This document shows, piece after piece, positions 43,231-52,342 of a DNA stretch of 64,000 bases. Source of the DNA: Granulicella sp. S156 (lineage in GTDB: Bacteria > Acidobacteriota > Terriglobia > Terriglobales > Acidobacteriaceae). How positions within the stretch are numbered: the stretch's first letter is position 1; each line of letters begins with the position of its first letter. The notes under the pieces were generated by a model. That model did no database searches. It worked only from the letters and a program-made list of their open reading frames with translations, and had not been told where the DNA came from. Position numbers and translations under genes: made by a program. The DNA lies in contig NZ_LMUH01000026.1 of NCBI RefSeq assembly GCF_009766105.1, positions 298,721 to 362,720 of the forward strand, written 5' to 3'.

Positions 43231-43848
43231 ATGAGTATAGATCCTAATCAGACCTCGACCAGCGGGCGGCCTACAGAGGTTCCGCAGCGTAACGACCGGT
43301 ACATCTTTGGCACGCTTGATAGTTTTGGCAAGAACCGGGACAAGGTTGAGGAGGTCAGCTGGGGCGATGCGCAGCCCGAGGGTGTGGTTCTGGCGTCGCT
43401 GGATGCCGCGATCAACTGGGTTCGTAAGAACTCGGTGTGGCCTATGACATTCGGTCTGGCCTGCTGTGCTATCGAGATGATGTCGATGGGCGGGTCACGC
43501 TACGATATCGCACGTTTCGGAGCGGAGGTGTTTCGTCCGTCTCCTCGGCAGAGCGACCTCATGATTATTGCGGGTCGTGTGTCGCAAAAGATGGCGCCGG
43601 TGATTCGTCGGCTTTACGAGCAGATGCCGGAGCCGAAGTGGGTGATTTCGATGGGAGCTTGCGCAACGTCGGGCGGTGTTTTCAATAACTATGCTCTGTT
43701 GCAAGGCGTTAATCAGGTAATTCCGGTGGATGTATATGTTCCTGGGTGCCCTCCGCGGCCGGAACAGTTGTTGTATGCCATTACGCTGCTGCAGGAAAAG
43801 ATTCAGGCCAGCCGCGGAACAGTAAGGCAGACATTGAATTTGTCGTAA
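43231..43848 (+). CDS. nuoB: NADH-quinone oxidoreductase subunit B
   Basis: A 205-residue NuoB, the complex I subunit that holds cluster N2, the last Fe-S centre before quinone. The four ligands are visible: the Cys-Cys pair in [11 protein letters not shown], Cys in MGACATSGG and Cys in [11 protein letters not shown]. The N-terminal 35 residues are extended and polar. It stands alone; no nuoA, C or D gene is adjacent, so it is a split member of a nuo set elsewhere or an extra copy. Confidence 0.95.
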
Positions 43849-44126: not shown

Positions 44127-45833
44127 ATGTCTTATCGCCCGTTTCGCAGTATCGGCCGGTGCCTGCTGGCAGCCAGTGCGGTCAGCTTTGGAATAGTGAG
44201 CCTGAGCGCGCAGACCGCGCCCAGCACAACCGCCCCCAGTGGGCCGAATCCTTCGCGCGTTGACATATTCGTGGGGTACTCGTACTTCGGAGCTCACGGC
44301 GAGGTGAAGCCGTTTGACCTTCCGTACTCGTCAATCAACGTAGGTGAAGCTGCTTCTGCCGCTTACTACTTCAATAAATATGTTGGTGGCGAGGCCGTTA
44401 TCATTAGCCACCATGGCACTGGAAACGGTGGAGAGGCTAACGACGGATTTGATTCCGTGTCGTTTGGTCCTGTCTTCCGCGCTCCGATGCAGAATTTCAC
44501 GCTCTTCGCGCATGGTCTCGTGGGCTTGGGCCGTCTTGTTGGACCCAACAACGACAATCCTGCTCTTTTTGAGCATGAGCCCTGGACATACGGCCCGGCC
44601 CTGACGGTCGGCGGTGGTATGGACTATGACACCCCGTTCTTCCATCACCACCTCGGCATCCGCCTGTTTGAGGCGGACTTCCGTTACGTTCATGCCGACT
44701 TCGGCCCTGTCGCTACGACCGTTACTCCCCCCTACACCACTGTTCCTCCTGTTTATGGAACACCCTGGCTGGGTGGCCGTGCGAACCTGAACGGTGTTGA
44801 TCTCAGCACCGGTATCCTGTGGCACATCGGCAGTGTTCTCCCGCCGCCGGCTGTTACCTATGCATGCGCTGTGACGGCTCCGACCGGCACGATCTACCCT
44901 GGCGACGTAGTTACGGTTACCGGAACGGCGACCAACCTGTCCCCGAAGGGCAACACGAACTACACCTGGAACTCGGATGGAGGTCCTGTATCCGGAACCT
45001 CGAACGTAGCGAGCATCGACACCAAGTCGCTTGCGCCCGGCAACTATACGGTGAAGGGCAAGATTTCGCAGGGCAACAAGATCTACCAGAATGCTGAGTG
45101 CTCGGCGCAGTTCACGGTGACACCGTTTGCTCCTCCGACAGTCGGCTGCTCGGCGAACCCCTCAACAGTGAACCCGGGTGATCCTTCGACGATTACGGCT
45201 AGCGGCGTAAGCCCGCAAAACCGTCCTCTGACCTACAGCTATAGCGCTACGGCTGGTTCGATCAGCGGCAACACCTCGACGGCTACCCTGACAACGACCG
45301 GCGTTGCTCCTGGCACGATTAGTGTGACTTGCAACGTGGTTGACGACAAGGGTCAGACTGCTTCGCAGCAGACAACAGTTACGGTTACGGCGCCTGCGCC
45401 GCCACCGGCTGTCACGACGACCAGCCTCTGCACCATCGCATTCGATCGCGATGTGCGTCGCCCGACACGCGTGGACAATGAAGCCAAGGCTTGCCTTGAC
45501 GACATCGCCCTCAGCGCGCAGCGCGATCCTCAGTCCAAGCTTGCTGTTATCGGCAACGCTCCGGCAGAAGAGAAGCAGGCTGAGCATAAGGCTGCTGAAC
45601 GCGCGGTCAACGAGAAGGCTTACCTGGTAACCGAGAAGGGTGTGGATGCTTCGCGCATCACGGTCTACACCGGCACGGCAGGCAACAAGACCTCCGCGAC
45701 GACCATCATCCCGGTAGGTGCGACGCTGGATACGACTGGACTCACCCCCGTGGATGAGGCAGCCGTCAAGGTTCAGCCTCGTACCCCACTCGGAGCCAAA
45801 CGGCACCACCACAAGAAGGCATCCGCTCAGTAA
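44127..45833 (+). CDS. OmpA-like outer-membrane protein with Ig-like domains, copy 1
   Basis: A 568-residue exported protein. After the signal peptide (SYRPFRSIGRCLLAASAVSFG..., cleavage near LSAQ) comes a beta-barrel-like domain (about 35-230; VDIFVGYSYFGAHGEVKPF, aromatic-rich alternating strands), then two Ig-like domains (about 240-330 and 335-425; the second begins VGCSANPSTVNPGDPSTITA), then an OmpA-type C-terminal domain (FDRDVRRPTRVDNEAKACLD ... ERAVNEKAYLVTEKGVDASRI). The TDxxG part of the canonical peptidoglycan site is missing. Tail RHHHKK. GGAGGA lies 7 bases before the ATG. First of three tandem paralogues. Confidence 0.85.
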   Translation: MSYRPFRSIGRCLLAASAVSFGIVSLSAQTAPSTTAPSGPNPSRVDIFVGYSYFGAHGEVKPFDLPYSSINVGEAASAAYYFNKYVGGEAVIISHHGTGNGGEANDGFDSVSFGPVFRAPMQNFTLFAHGLVGLGRLVGPNNDNPALFEHEPWTYGPALTVGGGMDYDTPFFHHHLGIRLFEADFRYVHADFGPVATTVTPPYTTVPPVYGTPWLGGRANLNGVDLSTGILWHIGSVLPPPAVTYACAVTAPTGTIYPGDVVTVTGTATNLSPKGNTNYTWNSDGGPVSGTSNVASIDTKSLAPGNYTVKGKISQGNKIYQNAECSAQFTVTPFAPPTVGCSANPSTVNPGDPSTITASGVSPQNRPLTYSYSATAGSISGNTSTATLTTTGVAPGTISVTCNVVDDKGQTASQQTTVTVTAPAPPPAVTTTSLCTIAFDRDVRRPTRVDNEAKACLDDIALSAQRDPQSKLAVIGNAPAEEKQAEHKAAERAVNEKAYLVTEKGVDASRITVYTGTAGNKTSATTIIPVGATLDTTGLTPVDEAAVKVQPRTPLGAKRHHHKKASAQ

Positions 45834-45858
45834 GTAATAAGCGGAAGCTGACACAACA

Positions 45859-45894
45859 ACGGCTGGCTGGGGATATCCCCAGCCAGCCGTTTTT
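45859..45894 (+). terminator. Terminator after OmpA-like gene 1
   Basis: A perfect 16-base inverted repeat (45859-45874 with 45875-45890, core GGCTGGCTGGGG/CCCCAGCCAGCC) and TTTT. The same GGCTGGC stem follows genes 2 and 3. Confidence 0.9.
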
Positions 45895-46114
45895 AATGTA
45901 GCTAGTCCGATTTGGATCACACCGGAGCAGTCCATCTCAGCGAGCAGCTTCATCCGAATCCACCTAAAGCACCGCCTGCCCACGGAAAATCTAGCTATTT
46001 TGCCAACGGGATAGGCATCTTGTGGCGATCGTCCGTGAATCATACGAGGTAAGCGATACATCGTGTAGCCGCTTACCTAACTTTCATCTTCAACTTGTAG
46101 GGGGCCCCTTTCCC

Positions 46115-47806
46115 ATGTTCAATCAATCGTTACGCAGTATCAGCCGATGCCTGTTGGTTGCCAGTATGGCCAGCCTAGGTGTGGCAAACCTCAAGGCGCA
46201 AAGCGCGCCCAACGTAGCCACTCCTCCAGCGGCGGTGAATTTTCCGCGCTACGACATATTCCTGGGCTACTCATACTTCAATGCCCATGCCCAGCTACAG
46301 CCGTTCAATATTCCCTACGACTCGATTACCGTAGGCGGTATTGCGTCGGGCGCCCTGTTCTTCACCAGGCATCTAGGTGTGGAGGTTTCGTTTGTCGATC
46401 ATAATGGCACGAAAAACAACGGCAGCGATAACGATGGTTTTAACTCGGCGATGGCGGGTCTTATCTATCGTTTCCCGGTGGGGAACTTCACGCCCTTTGT
46501 GCATGCATTGGGTGGCGAAGGACGTATCGTCGGCCCAAACAACGATTCTCCTGCGCTGTTTGAGCACGAGCCCGCGACATGGGGGGCAACAATGGCGGCT
46601 GGCGGCGGTCTGGACTACAACACGCCTCTTTGGGGTCACCGTATTAGCTTTCGCCTGATTCAGGCGGATTTCCGTTATGCCCATGCGGACTTTGGAACGC
46701 CGTATGCGGGAGGCGTTCCTGTTTATGGCCCCCCCTTCCTGGGTGGTAACACCGACCTTAAGGGTATCGATCTCAGTGCCGGTATTGTCCTGCATCCTGG
46801 GGAGAAGCGATGGGCGGAACCTGTCACCTACGCTTGTTCGGTCACGGCTCCAACCGGCACGATCTATCCCGGGGATGTTGTTACGATCAGCGGAACCCCC
46901 AGCGGTCTGAACCCGAAGAGGACCACGAACTATACCTGGGCAGCGGAGGGCATTCCTGTCTCCGGTACCTCGAATGTGGTGAGCGTGGATACAAAGTCAC
47001 TCGCCCCTGGCAACTACACGGTACACGGCCATGTAGCACAAGGAGCCAAGCCTCTTGAGATCGCCGACTGCACGGCGCAGTTTACGGTCAGCCCATTCGC
47101 ACCTCCCACTGTTAGCTGCTCGGCGAATCCCTCGACGGTGAACCCGGGCGATCCCTCTACGATTACGGCCACTGGTGTAAGCCCGCAGAACCGTCCTCTG
47201 ACCTACAGCTATAGCACTACAGCTGGCACGATCAGCGGCAATACATCAACGGCGCAGTTGTCGACAAGTGGAGCTGCCGCTGGCGCAACGATTACTGTGA
47301 GCTGCGATGTGGTCGACGATAAGGGACAGACTGCTTCGTCAACGGCGACCGTCATGGTAGCCGCGCCACCCCCGCCCCCGCAAGTTACAGCGAGCAGCCT
47401 CTGCACCATCGCATTCGATCGCGATGTGCGTCGCCCGACGCGTGTGGACAATGAAGCCAAGGCTTGCCTTGACGACATCGCCCTCAGCGCCCAGCGAGAT
47501 TCTCAGGCTAAGCTGGCTGTCGTTGGCAGCGCTGCAGCCGACGAGAAGATGGCCGATCACAAAGCTGCAGAACGTGCAGTGAATGAGAAGGCCTACCTGG
47601 TAACCGAGAAGGGTGTGGATGCCTCGCGCATCACGGTGTACACCGCCGCGGCCGGCACCAAGAGCGCGGCGACAACCATCATCCCGGCTGGTGCGACCTT
47701 CGATACGACTGGACTCACCCCTGTGGATGAGACAGCCGTCAAGGTCCAGCCTCGTACGCCGCTCGGAGCCCCGAGGCATCACCACAAAACAGCGGCTACC
47801 AACTAA
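46115..47806 (+). CDS. OmpA-like outer-membrane protein with Ig-like domains, copy 2
   Basis: A 563-residue paralogue of copies 1 and 3 with the same order: signal peptide (FNQSLRSISRCLLVASMASLG, cleavage near LKAQ), beta-barrel-like domain starting YDIFLGYSYFNAHAQLQPF, two Ig-like domains (the second again VSCSANPSTVNPGDPSTITA) and an OmpA-type end FDRDVRRPTRVDNEAKACLD. The second Ig and OmpA parts are nearly identical to copy 1, while the barrel is closer to copy 3. The ATG at 46115 begins the signal peptide; the ribosome site (GGGG) is weak. Tail RHHHKTA. Confidence 0.85.
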   Translation: MFNQSLRSISRCLLVASMASLGVANLKAQSAPNVATPPAAVNFPRYDIFLGYSYFNAHAQLQPFNIPYDSITVGGIASGALFFTRHLGVEVSFVDHNGTKNNGSDNDGFNSAMAGLIYRFPVGNFTPFVHALGGEGRIVGPNNDSPALFEHEPATWGATMAAGGGLDYNTPLWGHRISFRLIQADFRYAHADFGTPYAGGVPVYGPPFLGGNTDLKGIDLSAGIVLHPGEKRWAEPVTYACSVTAPTGTIYPGDVVTISGTPSGLNPKRTTNYTWAAEGIPVSGTSNVVSVDTKSLAPGNYTVHGHVAQGAKPLEIADCTAQFTVSPFAPPTVSCSANPSTVNPGDPSTITATGVSPQNRPLTYSYSTTAGTISGNTSTAQLSTSGAAAGATITVSCDVVDDKGQTASSTATVMVAAPPPPPQVTASSLCTIAFDRDVRRPTRVDNEAKACLDDIALSAQRDSQAKLAVVGSAAADEKMADHKAAERAVNEKAYLVTEKGVDASRITVYTAAAGTKSAATTIIPAGATFDTTGLTPVDETAVKVQPRTPLGAPRHHHKTAATN

Positions 47807-47826
47807 TAGGCGGAAGCTGACATAAG

Positions 47827-47860
47827 AACGGCTGGCTGAGAGATTCTCAGCCAGCCGTTT
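47827..47860 (+). terminator. Terminator after OmpA-like gene 2
   Basis: A 14-bp stem (47827-47840 with 47846-47859, core GGCTGGCTGAG/CTCAGCCAGCC) with a 5-base loop, followed by TTTCTTTT. Homologous to the terminator after gene 1. Confidence 0.88.
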
Positions 47861-48372
47861 CTTTTGGCGAGTGCTTATTTTGAATGGCGGACTCACCTTT
47901 GAGTCCGCACCTCAACGTGCAGCTTATCGCTGGGCAAGACGAGGTGTATTGTTGTGGGTAATAAGAAGCTGATCACCCTTAAGCATTTTTACTAGAGATT
48001 GTAAGCAACGGGAGTACACTTTCGTGGAATACCCTTTATCCGTGGCTTTTTGATTCGAATACTTTTCAATCAAATGGAGAATTCCAGCAGATGGTGTTCT
48101 TTGAATGTAAACTTATTGTAATCAATGGCTTGCAGGTGCAAGGAAATACGGTCATAATACTCCAGGGCCTTTGCTCAAGGCTTTCCTCGAAGGAATAGCT
48201 CTTAGTAAAGCTGAACTATGCAATACGCGAAATTACGCGTAGGGCCAAATTTCGGCGGATATGCCAGGTATCTGGGCGCGAAGTTTTGCGAATCAACAAA
48301 GTACACAAGTTTCGCAGACTATAATCCGCTGGACCTATTATTTTGTTTCTGACTGTGGGGAGGCTACGTCTT
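47861..48372. other. AT-rich non-coding gap before OmpA-like gene 3
   Basis: About 510 bases, visibly richer in A and T than the flanks. They hold a TACACTTTC block near 48013-48021 like that upstream of gene 1, and a perfect TATAAT at 48320-48325 about 47 bases before the gene 3 start. A 35-codon frame from ATG 48091 to TAG 48198 (MVFFECKLIVINGLQV...) has no ribosome site and is not called. I see no repeat-family copy here. Confidence 0.5.
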
Positions 48373-50052
48373 ATGTCTTATCATTCGTTCCGCAATATTG
48401 GCCGATGCCTGCTGGTTGCCGGTATGGCTAGCGTTGGAGTAGCAGGTCTAAATGCACAAAGTGCGGCCAAAGTAGCTGCTCCCGTTTCGGAGGATAACCT
48501 TCCGAGCTATAACATCTTCCTGGGATACTCGTATTTCAATTCCCATGCCCAGCTACAGCCGTTCAATATCCCCTATGCGTCGATTACGACAGGCGGAACC
48601 GTAGCCGGCTCCTTGTTTTTTACCAGGCATCTAGGTGTTGAAGTTTCGTTTGTCGATCACAATGGCACGGCAGACAATGGCAGCGATAACGATGGTTTCA
48701 ACTCCATATCGGCAGGCGGCATTTATCGCTTCCCGATTTCGAATTTCACGCCCTTTGCGCATGTATTGTTTGGCGGGGCACGTATCGTGGGGCCGAACAA
48801 CGATGCTCCAGCGTTGTTTGAGCACGAGCCCCCGACGTGGGGTCCAGCCCTCACGGCTGGCGGCGGCCTGGACTACAACACAGGGCTTTGGGGACACCGT
48901 GTCAGCTTTCGCCTGATTCAGGTGGATTTTCGTTACGCCCATGCAGACTTTGGCACGCCCTATGCGGGAGGTATTCCCGTTTATGGAACTCCCTGGCTGG
49001 GGGGAAATACCGACCTTAAGGGGATCGATCTAAGTGCCGGCATTGTGCTGCATCCGGGCCACAAGCAGTGGACTGAACCTGTCAGCTACGCCTGCTCTGT
49101 GACGGTGCCGACCGGCACGATCTATCCTGGGGATATTGTTACGATCAGCGGAACTCCCGCCGGGTTGAACCCCAAGAAGGCTGCGAGCTATACCTGGGCA
49201 GCGGAGGGCATTCCTGTCTCCGGCACCTCGGATGTAGTGAGTGTGAACACGAAGTCACTCGCGCCTGGTAGCTACACGGTACATGGCCACGTAGCGCAGG
49301 GATCCAGGCCTTATGAGGTCGCCGACTGCTCGACGCAGTTTACTGTGGCCGCCTTCCAGCCGCCGACAGTGAGCTGCTCGGCAAATCCATCGACGGTCAA
49401 TCCTGGCGACCCATCGACGATTACGGCTAGCGGTGTAAGCCCGCAGAACCGTCCTCTGACCTACAGCTACAGCGCCACGGCCGGTACGATCAGCGGCAAT
49501 ACGTCAACAACTACAATGTCGACGAGTGGAGCTGCCCCCGGTTCAACGATTACTGTAAGTTGCGATGTGGTCGACGACAGATCCCAGACTGCTTCGTCAA
49601 CGGCGGCTGTCCTGGTATCCGCTCCTCCGCCACCCCCGCCAGCCGCTAAGGCGAGCAGCCTCTGCACAATCGGATTCGATCGTGATCCGAAGCGCCCGAC
49701 ACGCGTGGACAATGAAGCCAAGGCTTGCCTTGATGACATTGCCCTCAGTGCCCAACGCGATTCGCAAGCCAAGTTGGCGATTATCGGCAACGCTACGGAT
49801 GGCGAAGTAACGGCCGACCACAAAGCTGCAGAACGTGCCGTGAATGCGAAGGACTACCTGGTGAGCGAAAAGGGGCTGAATCCCGCGCGTATCGCGGTTT
49901 ACACCGGTACGGCCGATGCCAGGAACGCAACCACGACCATCATCCCGGAGGGAGCCATCTTTGATACCGCCGGACTTAGCCCTGTGGATGAGGCTGCTGT
50001 CAGGCCGACTCCAAGACAACCGCTGCCAACCGGGAGACGCCGTCGCAAGTAA
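48373..50052 (+). CDS. OmpA-like outer-membrane protein with Ig-like domains, copy 3
   Basis: A 559-residue third paralogue: signal peptide (SYHSFRNIGRCLLVAGMASVG, cleavage near LNAQ), beta-barrel-like domain YNIFLGYSYFNSHAQLQPF, two Ig-like domains and an OmpA-type C-terminus that has diverged (FDRDPKRPTRVDNEAKACLD, AKDYLVSEKGLNPARI) and ends GRRRRK instead of the His-rich tail. GGGGAGG lies 9 bases before the ATG. All three presumably span from outer membrane to the periplasmic side of the envelope; surface or structural roles are inferred. Confidence 0.85.
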   Translation: MSYHSFRNIGRCLLVAGMASVGVAGLNAQSAAKVAAPVSEDNLPSYNIFLGYSYFNSHAQLQPFNIPYASITTGGTVAGSLFFTRHLGVEVSFVDHNGTADNGSDNDGFNSISAGGIYRFPISNFTPFAHVLFGGARIVGPNNDAPALFEHEPPTWGPALTAGGGLDYNTGLWGHRVSFRLIQVDFRYAHADFGTPYAGGIPVYGTPWLGGNTDLKGIDLSAGIVLHPGHKQWTEPVSYACSVTVPTGTIYPGDIVTISGTPAGLNPKKAASYTWAAEGIPVSGTSDVVSVNTKSLAPGSYTVHGHVAQGSRPYEVADCSTQFTVAAFQPPTVSCSANPSTVNPGDPSTITASGVSPQNRPLTYSYSATAGTISGNTSTTTMSTSGAAPGSTITVSCDVVDDRSQTASSTAAVLVSAPPPPPPAAKASSLCTIGFDRDPKRPTRVDNEAKACLDDIALSAQRDSQAKLAIIGNATDGEVTADHKAAERAVNAKDYLVSEKGLNPARIAVYTGTADARNATTTIIPEGAIFDTAGLSPVDEAAVRPTPRQPLPTGRRRRK

Positions 50053-50085
50053 GGCAGTCGACAAGGAATATAGAAGCCTATCAAC

Positions 50086-50123
50086 CACGGCTGGCTGGGA
50101 ATCTCCCGCCAGCCGTGTCTTTT
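50086..50123 (+). terminator. Terminator after OmpA-like gene 3
   Basis: Stem 50086-50100 with 50104-50117 (core CACGGCTGGC/GCCAGCCGTG, one bulged base) and tail TCTTTT. Third member of the homologous terminator set. Confidence 0.85.
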
Positions 50124-50263: not shown

Positions 50264-52342
50264 ATGATTTGGCGTATGTTACGCAAGCTTGGTATGTCGG
50301 TTTTATTTTGTGCAATTGTGCCGACCGCGATGCACGCGGTGACTTGGTTTCCTTTGGGTCCCTATGGTGGCGATGCCCGTTCTTTTGCGGCGGATCCTGG
50401 TAACTCCAAGCACCTCTATATGGGGACGGCCATCGGTTGGCTGTATGAATCCAATGATGGTGGCTCGACGTGGGCACGGTTGTCGCGCATCGACAAGCGC
50501 GACGATCTGGTGCTCCGCCACATCCTGATTGATCCCAGGAACCCGAAGCACATGGTTGTCGGGGCGTACGCGGTCGGCAGCCCCGACGGCGGGGTATACA
50601 TCAGTGATGACGCGGGCAGGAACTGGTATGCACAGGCTGAGATGCGCCGGCAGTCAGTCCGTTCGATGGCTCAATCCTTGTCTAACCCGGATGAGCTGGT
50701 TGCGGGCACTCTTAAAGGTATCTATCGCAGCATGGACGACGGCAAACACTGGCAGCTCATCAGCCCGGAGGGAAGCAAGGAGATTCACGAGGTTGAATCC
50801 CTGGCCATTGATCCCGTCGATCCTAAGATTATTTATGCGGGGACGTGGCACCTGCCCTGGAAGACCGTAGACGGTGGCGAGAAGTGGGACCCCATCAAAC
50901 AGGGTCTCATCGACGATTCGGATGTATTTTCGATCATCATCGATCCGGCGAAGCCTTCCATTGTCTATGCAAGTGCTTGCTCGGGTATCTACAAGAGCGT
51001 GGATGCCGCGGCGCAGTTCAAAAAGATACAGGGTATTCCGTCTACCGCGCGCAGGACGCGCAGGCTGCTGCAAGACCCTGTCCATCCCGAGACGGTTTAT
51101 GCAGGCACCACGGAGGGACTCTATCGCACGCAGGATGGCGGTAAGACCTTTATACGGATGACCGGGCCGGAAATTATTGTGAACGATGTCTACGTCGATC
51201 CGAAGAACCCGGATCACGTTCTGCTCGCGACCGATCGGGGTGGGGTTCTGCGCAGCGAGGACACGGGCTTCAGCTTCCAGGCCTCGAATACAGGTTTTTC
51301 GGCGCAGCAGGTAACGGCTTTTGCATCGGACTCTCAGAACCATGCCACTATCTATGCGGGAGTGGCGAATGCCAAAGAGTCCGGAGGCGTGTTTCGGAGC
51401 GTCGACGGAGGAGTGCGATGGGAGCAGCAGAGTTCCGGTCTCGGCGGCCGTGATGTCTTCAGCCTGGCGTCGACGCCTACGGGGACGCTGCTTGCAGGAA
51501 CGGAGCACGGTATTTTTCGTCTCGGTGAATCAGGCTGGTCTGATTCTGGCGCTCTACCTCCTGCTACGCCCCCAGCGAGTGCGCCTAAAAAGTCAAAGCC
51601 TGGAGCCAAGCCGAAGGCCGGAGTCAGGCTTAAAGCGACGCCTGTATCGTATGTTTTCCAACAGGGGACAGAAACAGCCAAGAAGAAACCAGGAGCCGGA
51701 TCGAAGCGGCGGCCCGCTGCACCGCCACCGATATTTTCGAACCTTGGTGCGGCCGTCTATTCGCTCGTTGCGGATGGCGGTACGGTGTATGCAGCTACCT
51801 CAGAGGGCCTGCTCCGCGGAGACAATGACGGGCACTTTTGGACTCCTGTGAGCTCCTTCTCTATGTCCGATCCGCATTTTGTCGCGGCAGATAAGACTAC
51901 AGTGATGGTCGCCGGACTAAAGCGCATTGATCTGTCGCTGGACGCGGGGACTACATGGAACACGGTCAATCTTCCGGAGGATTTGAAGCAGGTTGCAGCT
52001 ATCGCGGTAGATGAGCAGGACAATTTGTGGGTTGGCGGACACCCAGGCGTATTTCGTTCCACGGATCACGGGCAATCGTGGACGATGCTGCCCAATCTCT
52101 TCGTGACGGATGTGGACGGCATCTTCTTCGATGCGGCGGGCCATCGCGTATTGGTGGCATCCGCAAGTTCTACGATTACGTTTGCGGTGAGTTTGCCGGA
52201 CTACAAGGTGAGCTACTGGGAAACGGGCTGGAATCTGCGGTTTGTCCGGTCTATTGGCAACCACCTGATCGGCGCAACCATGTTTGACGGGATGGTTATC
52301 CAGCCGGAGATGGTTGTCTCCCCAATTTCGGCGGCAAAGTGA
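50264..52342 (+). CDS. Exported BNR/Ycf48-like beta-propeller protein
   Basis: A 692-residue protein with a signal peptide (RKLGMSVLFCAIVPTAMHAV) followed by many BNR/sialidase-type repeats with the motif S-x-D-x-G-x-T/S-W: ESNDGGSTWARL, ISDDAGRNWYAQ, KSVDAAAQFKK, RTQDGGKTFIRM, RSVDGGVRWEQ, LSLDAGTTWNTV and RSTDHGQSWTML. This is the fold of Ycf48-like and VPS10-type propellers. A Lys/Pro/Ala-rich linker of about 80 residues near 430-510 splits it into two propellers. It is probably periplasmic or surface-located; the partner is unknown. mqnE follows 43 bases later. Confidence 0.8.
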   Translation: MIWRMLRKLGMSVLFCAIVPTAMHAVTWFPLGPYGGDARSFAADPGNSKHLYMGTAIGWLYESNDGGSTWARLSRIDKRDDLVLRHILIDPRNPKHMVVGAYAVGSPDGGVYISDDAGRNWYAQAEMRRQSVRSMAQSLSNPDELVAGTLKGIYRSMDDGKHWQLISPEGSKEIHEVESLAIDPVDPKIIYAGTWHLPWKTVDGGEKWDPIKQGLIDDSDVFSIIIDPAKPSIVYASACSGIYKSVDAAAQFKKIQGIPSTARRTRRLLQDPVHPETVYAGTTEGLYRTQDGGKTFIRMTGPEIIVNDVYVDPKNPDHVLLATDRGGVLRSEDTGFSFQASNTGFSAQQVTAFASDSQNHATIYAGVANAKESGGVFRSVDGGVRWEQQSSGLGGRDVFSLASTPTGTLLAGTEHGIFRLGESGWSDSGALPPATPPASAPKKSKPGAKPKAGVRLKATPVSYVFQQGTETAKKKPGAGSKRRPAAPPPIFSNLGAAVYSLVADGGTVYAATSEGLLRGDNDGHFWTPVSSFSMSDPHFVAADKTTVMVAGLKRIDLSLDAGTTWNTVNLPEDLKQVAAIAVDEQDNLWVGGHPGVFRSTDHGQSWTMLPNLFVTDVDGIFFDAAGHRVLVASASSTITFAVSLPDYKVSYWETGWNLRFVRSIGNHLIGATMFDGMVIQPEMVVSPISAAK

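Follow-up and report, generated by a model that had tools for sequence, protein, structure and literature searches.

Granulicella sp. S156 carries three tandem genes for OmpA-like outer-membrane proteins within a 64,000-nucleotide (nt) stretch of contig NZ_LMUH01000026.1, referred to here as the window. The array is a lineage-specific tandem expansion of a conserved, syntenic OmpA-like outer-membrane protein gene, and its middle copy reads as a hybrid, b-type up to the linker after the second immunoglobulin (Ig)-like domain and a-type beyond it, in the C-terminal domain, the tail and the 3′ flank. One unequal homologous crossover between two arrays of the order a-b probably made both the third copy and the mosaic. 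An earlier note on this DNA had described three tandem paralogues, each with a signal peptide, a barrel, two Ig-like domains and an OmpA-type end, and all three were found intact, head to tail on the + strand, the signal peptide being probable. They are copy 1 (a-type, 44127–45833, 568 amino acids), copy 2 (the chimera, 46115–47806, 563 amino acids) and copy 3 (b-type, 48373–50052, 559 amino acids). Whole-genome searches gave protein identities of 68% for copies 1 and 2, 61% for copies 1 and 3, and 77% for copies 2 and 3. The ratio of nonsynonymous to synonymous divergence between copies is 0.17–0.23, so all three are under purifying selection relative to one another. The order of the array is a-(b/a)-b, compared with a-b in two other genomes of the genus, G003 and G004.

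The mosaic is visible in the site patterns of the three-copy comparison. Sites shared by copies 2 and 3 outnumber those shared by copies 1 and 2 in the barrel (151 vs 43), in the first Ig-like domain, Ig1 (57 vs 25), and in the second, Ig2, with its linker (36 vs 26), and the balance is reversed in the C-terminal part (24 vs 72). The earlier grouping of the barrels of copies 2 and 3 is borne out by these counts. The accompanying statement that copies 1 and 2 are almost the same in their Ig and OmpA parts did not hold, as the Ig domains group copy 2 with copy 3 and the C-terminal parts of copies 1 and 2 share 84.6% DNA identity. A single breakpoint at alignment codon 431/432 gave a maximum chi-square of 72.9, reached by 0/5000 permutations (largest 28.3), and it was also recovered at third codon positions alone (p 0.0004, 5000 permutations). 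The diagnostic sites that flank it are codon 429 (b) and codon 440 (a), and column 431 is residue 416 of copy 2. The breakpoint would then lie at 47355–47385 on the + strand (positions hand-derived from alignment columns), in the Pro-rich linker leading from Ig2 to the OmpA-like domain of copy 2. At sites fixed in both a-type and b-type genes, copy 2 is b-like at 57/70 in the barrel and a-like at 24/30 in the C-terminal part.

Trees of the 5′ and 3′ segments disagree in the same way, and approximately unbiased (AU) tests rejected the swapped grouping on both sides of the break, which is the outcome that the earlier note had expected of a mosaic. Protein trees were built from 31 of 36 rows, with the near-duplicates Talb2, Bin63, SH60, G004_a and G004_b left out, and DNA trees and site counts from 12 rows or fewer. 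In the 5′ protein tree, copies 2 and 3 group together (support 100/99), followed by the b copy of G003, and the grouping of copies 1 and 2 is rejected (AU p 5.5e-5). In the 3′ protein tree, copy 2 joins copy 1 and the a copy of G003 (97/91), copy 3 joins the b copy of G003 (99/96), and the grouping of copies 2 and 3 is rejected (AU p 0.009), as it is in the 12-row 3′ DNA tree (p 0.00014). In the protein tree of the 5′ segment, the a and b copies of Granulicella sp. S156 fall into a single clade with those of G003 (100/99), which dates the first duplication to the common ancestor of these two genomes.

The distribution of the gene in relatives supports an expansion at a fixed place. As the earlier note had suggested, copy number was compared across related genomes, here 28 of the genus searched with copy 1 as query. 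A match was found in 27/28, and the gene itself, at ~64% identity or more, in 26/28 (fragmented over two contigs in G013); G024 has just a ~41% paralogue, and G019, which is 54% complete, has no match. There are three copies in Granulicella sp. S156, two adjacent ones in each of G003 and G004, and one, of the copy-1 type, in the other 23. The gene order in the genus loci compared is glnD-nuoB-gene-YCF48, with nuoB upstream in 20/20 loci (L048–L067) and the YCF48-like gene downstream in 19/20, the contig of L064 ending before it. In the window these conserved neighbours are a gene at 43231–43848 (+), which from its sequence we take to be nuoB, and a beta-propeller gene at 50264–52342 (+), presumably of the YCF48/sortilin-like family. 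Among 90 family genomes, a draw that did not include G003 or G004, 68 match at 1e-60, and no other tandem array was found among the matches listed. Two metagenome-assembled genomes labelled Granulicella have an additional member of the family, ~48% identical to copy 1, that lies between nuoB and glnD, with nuoB separating it from the usual copy (L039:5205-6833 and L044:6087-7706). In one of them, bog_404, the usual copy lies in two overlapping open frames (L044:8831-10497), probably owing to a frameshift or an assembly error.

Many genomes of the genus also have a paralogue at ~39–47% identity elsewhere. No ~40% paralogue is among the matches listed for Granulicella sp. S156, G003 and G004, the three genomes with tandem copies. 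The idea that copies 2 and 3 derive from such paralogues is not supported, as the b-types adjoin the a-type of the same clade in the 5′ tree, a tree built without those paralogues.

We propose that the array arose in two steps. The gene would have been duplicated to a-b in the common ancestor of Granulicella sp. S156 and its sisters, together with its terminator and some or all of the DNA upstream. Later, two a-b arrays would have misaligned, b paired with a, and crossed over in the linker after Ig2 to give a-(b5′/a3′)-b. One crossover predicts the order seen, one breakpoint, halves of equal age, b-type DNA ahead of both copy 2 and copy 3, and DNA of the a type following copy 2. Four of these predictions hold or fit; for the last, on the DNA that follows copy 2, the evidence is mixed. 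We favour one crossover because of the array order, the single breakpoint, the similar synonymous divergence (pS) of the two halves and the b-type DNA upstream of copies 2 and 3. For copies 2 and 3 before the break pS is 0.438 (0.375–0.501), and for copies 1 and 2 after it 0.387 (0.290–0.489). The DNA upstream of copies 2 and 3 scores 77.5 and 55.5 with that upstream of the G003 b copy (null maximum 46 each), compared with 34 and 29.5 for that upstream of the G003 a copy, values reached in 32/200 and 90/200 null comparisons. The a and b upstream DNA are themselves partly alike, since the region before copy 1 scores 57 with that before the G003 b copy (0/200); no likeness is left between the upstream DNA of copy 1 and that of copy 2 or copy 3 (59/200 and 169/200). 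On the other side of the genes, the 3′ flank of copy 2 matches that of copy 1 (93) better than that of copy 3 (48), and among the flanks compared it is best aligned to that of copy 1. The downstream DNA of copy 3 scores 152 with that of the G003 b copy (null maximum 38), and in its 3′ flank it agrees with the second copy of both G003 and G004. In G004 the two copies are separated by a spacer ~200 bases longer than that of G003 (L049:7635-8517); it has by eye an extra inverted repeat, possibly a small palindromic element.

Several results weigh against a simple crossover between a-b arrays. Within copy 2, 5/30 diagnostic sites of the C-terminal part are b-like and 27/134 upstream of the break are a-like. 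In the 12-row 3′ DNA tree, copy 2 is basal in the b clade (84/86), and sisterhood of copies 1 and 2 is not the best 3′ tree with either kind of data (AU p 0.21 for DNA and 0.084 for protein), for which reason the trees do not fix the timing of the event. The 3′ protein tree also places copy 3 and the G003 b copy outside the other a-types (90/83, unstarred), perhaps owing to their longer branches, and the age of the first duplication consequently rests on the 5′ segment. Of the intergenic DNA, the upstream regions of copies 2 and 3 are only weakly alike (42, 6/200), and the spacers between copies 1 and 2 and between copies 2 and 3 are barely alike past their hairpins (27, 1/500; 55, 35/300). 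The first 90 nt of the copy 2–copy 3 spacer past the hairpin match neither G003 b-downstream DNA (18, 93/500) nor the G003 a-b spacer (17, 175/500). The whole copy 2–copy 3 spacer scores 75 with G003 b-downstream DNA compared with 63 with the G003 a-b spacer, which lowers the odds of one crossover and raises those of gene conversion.

Gene conversion was the explanation given in the earlier note. The mosaic that it was meant to explain stands on the single breakpoint and the AU tests; conversion is not needed for it, as one crossover explains the same pattern. Under conversion, a whole b gene would have been duplicated to give copies 2 and 3, and copy 1 would later have overwritten the 3′ end of copy 2. 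This would likewise yield a single 3′ tract that carries a C-terminal domain of the a type, and besides the spacer score just given, the few b-like sites within the a-type tract of copy 2 fit such a history. However, conversion requires two events, and under it the two halves could differ in age, whereas the observed pS ranges overlap. It also predicts b-downstream DNA in the spacer between copies 2 and 3, where no significant match to such DNA exists beyond the hairpin (17–18, 93–151/500 shuffles). The longer copy 2–copy 3 spacer beyond the hairpin instead matches the G003 a-b spacer at looser gap costs (135, 0/300 shuffles, maximum 126). We regard conversion as a serious contender that is nevertheless somewhat doubtful, and retain one unequal crossover as the probable origin.

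A history with no recombination, in which uneven rates make the C-terminal domain of copy 3 and the barrel of copy 1 appear distant, is very improbable. The long end branch of copy 3 in the 3′ protein tree (0.34) would fit it, but the break is sharp, single and present at third codon positions, the tree conflict and AU rejections fall on both sides of the break, and copy 3 has its C-terminal tail and 3′ flank in common with the G003 b copy. Recombining outer-membrane paralogues in tandem are a typical feature of antigenic-variation systems in pathogens. A contingency array of this kind, with extra copies supplying alternative surface loops, can be set aside here almost entirely: loop 4, where copy 1 has an insertion and is just 36–43% like the other copies, is the exception to barrel differences that are not concentrated in loops overall, loop 3 is 82–88% alike across the three copies, all three copies are intact, and among the genomes searched the array occurs in Granulicella sp. 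S156, G003 and G004 only. Identity in strands and loops, with loops taken from the model of copy 1 and their sidedness assumed, is 51% vs 53% for copies 1 and 2, 50% vs 54% for copies 1 and 3, and 80% vs 87% for copies 2 and 3.

As the earlier note had described, each copy is followed by a GGCTGGC hairpin. It starts at most 35 nt after the stop codon and has a stem of 13–15 bp. These terminator-like hairpins lie on the + strand at 45859–45890 (copy 1, with a 14–15-bp stem and a T-rich tail), 47828–47858 (copy 2) and 50086–50117 (copy 3). The further proposal that the duplicated unit includes the terminator is supported by related genes, single-copy ones included: in 32/36 the 110 nt that follow the stop contain a stem of 11 bp or more, with no more than one mismatch, a count made with no shuffle control. 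Most of these hairpins have by eye a related GGC core, and those of palsa421 and bog226 have a different one; in G014, G016, G018 and SH60 these 110 nt contain no long stem. The hairpin is probably an old part of the duplicated unit, to judge from its occurrence across these genes. We rejected a dispersed repeat, since the 6.44-Mb host genome has 6 instances of the exact pattern GGCTGGC...GCCAGCC, 3 of them at the array, and a hairpin follows 32/36 related genes. A consensus terminator scan called only the hairpin of copy 1 terminator-like among the three. Consensus scanning gave 9 terminator-like sites vs 6.1 expected and 2 promoter sites vs 3.6 expected, and no promoter is claimed.

The encoded protein is likely an outer-membrane anchor of the OmpA type, with the Ig domains as spacer and with uncertain wall affinity, a function suggested by its predicted fold. 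The parts of copy 1 were assigned from the open reading frame and its translation, an AlphaFold2 model and structural alignment. They are a probable signal peptide, an 8-strand barrel (residues 45–234), Ig/PKD-like domains at 244–331 and 338–420, an OmpA-like C-terminal domain (432–530) and a His/Lys tail. Copy 3 has the same architecture, and copy 2 combines a b-type signal peptide, barrel, Ig1 and Ig2 with the a-type C-terminal domain and tail. The model, made for copy 1 with 15 aligned sequences, has an N-terminal helix, the eight barrel strands, two beta-sandwich domains and, at residues 432–528, a strand-helix-strand-helix-strand-strand arrangement. Its mean predicted local distance difference test score is 74.3, and its predicted template-modelling score is 0.39, which counts against the proposed reading. 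The N-terminus, where helix 4–28 has low model confidence, is hydrophobic and ends in A-Q.

Using VIA-align, we found that the barrel of copy 1 aligns with OmpW (Z 16.4, root-mean-square deviation (rmsd) 3.1, 166 aligned), with the OmpA barrel (Z 15.7, rmsd 2.2, 133 aligned) and also with NspA, the range over OmpW, NspA and OmpA being Z 15–16. Residues 242–423 matched Ig/PKD-type folds. The predicted C-terminal domain has an OmpA-like fold, matching OmpA of A. baumannii (3td3) with Z 11.3, rmsd 3.2, 100 aligned and 21% identity. Foldseek with the whole model returned chiefly Ig-type and similar chains. Pfam points the same way, though weakly. PF22352 (PKD) was matched by copy 1 at 30.3 bits against a cut-off of 27, by copies 2 and 3 below it (21.1 and 14.4), and at E ≤ 0.01 by 14/15 aligned sequences. 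With full proteins, copy 3 reached 24.7 bits for PF00691 against a cut-off of 27.2, and copies 1 and 2 had no match listed at E ≤ 1; the isolated C-terminal domain of copy 1 scored 26.9 bits. A PF00691 search of the own genome gave 3 matches, none at the array locus. For PF13505, copy 3 fell below the cut-off and copies 1 and 2 had no listed match; an NCBIfam scan gave nothing above cut-off, and the OprF and OmpA profile matches of the C-terminal domain were weak (E 0.027 and 0.19). In the arrangement that we envisage, the 8-strand barrel would sit in the outer membrane, the two Ig/PKD-like domains would form a periplasmic spacer, and the OmpA-fold domain would reach the cell wall, so that the crossover would have put b-type surface and spacer parts onto an a-type wall-facing domain. 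Short proteins in three genomes of the genus (L086, L087 and L088, in G016, G017 and G018) match the barrel part alone at 48–49% to copy 1, as if such barrels also exist without Ig and wall domains.

The missing Asp of the wall-binding site is the most interesting loose end. In A. baumannii OmpA, an Asp and an Arg are described as contacting diaminopimelate (PMC10385648), and for the OmpA-like domain of PapS it is stated that exchange of the Arg abolished binding of meso-diaminopimelate (PMC11369160). The site was located in a profile alignment with OmpA of A. baumannii, in which Asp271 and Arg286 served as reference residues. Copies 1 and 2 have no Asp at the aligned position and lack TDxxG, in agreement with the earlier note; the same claim fails for copy 3, whose motif reads GNATDGE with the Asp shifted by one residue. 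Among 36 sequences, which are relatives and not independent of one another, the Asp is at +3 (standard spacing) in 7, at +4 in 3 and absent from 26, and the partner Arg is kept in 36/36 (34 by script and two by eye). Two Cys flank a stretch containing the block RPTRVDNEAKACLDD in most members, and both (C435 and C456) are invariant in a 15-row alignment. As the Arg is kept and the canonical Asp is gone, any attachment of copies 1 and 2 to the wall is probably weaker than usual or of another kind.

It is conceivable, though on balance unlikely, that this OmpA-fold domain of the Acidobacteriaceae, Asp-less in most members compared but with its Arg, its RPTRVDNEAKACLDD-like block and its two Cys, binds another wall ligand or binds in another way. 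If true, Asp-less a-type and displaced-Asp b-type domains on one type of barrel would be natural chimeras for comparison. Being a conserved variant of the OmpA fold that lacks the usual ligand Asp, the C-terminal domain would allow the ligand rule of a very common wall-binding domain to be tested. A profile of the C-terminal domain matches 110/297 genomes of the phylum at E ≤ 0.001, most strongly in the same family. In the same genome, a 278-amino-acid open frame (L089, C23:642261-642683, minus strand) matches this profile at E 7e-18; its match to copies 1 and 2 is weak and confined to the C-terminal part.

In summary, the locus is fairly well explained by an ordinary tandem expansion in which the middle gene became domain-swapped, and it most likely encodes an ordinary kind of outer-membrane anchor. 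Its value is that of a clean case in which the growth of a tandem array made a domain-swapped gene while two-copy arrays survive in sister genomes; neither this growth nor the Asp-less domain overturns existing knowledge. Literature on Granulicella OmpA outer-membrane proteins was searched for, and nothing was found. The closest known arrays are the two-copy ones of G003 (L048) and G004 (L049), which share the locus, neighbours and hairpins, with copy 1 being 88–89% identical, but lack the chimeric middle copy. Compared with OmpA/OprF-type proteins, the array proteins have the same predicted 8-strand barrel and OmpA-like C-terminal domain. They differ in the two Ig/PKD-like domains that separate the barrel from the wall domain, in the absence (copies 1 and 2) or displacement (copy 3) of the diaminopimelate-site Asp, and in a conserved RPTRVDNEAKACLDD block with a second Cys nearby. 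Helicobacter hop/bab and Anaplasma msp2 are tandem outer-membrane paralogue families with recombination, and they likewise have mosaic paralogues in neighbouring copies; in contrast to them, the array described here probably reflects one old event, and its diversity is not focused on loops overall.

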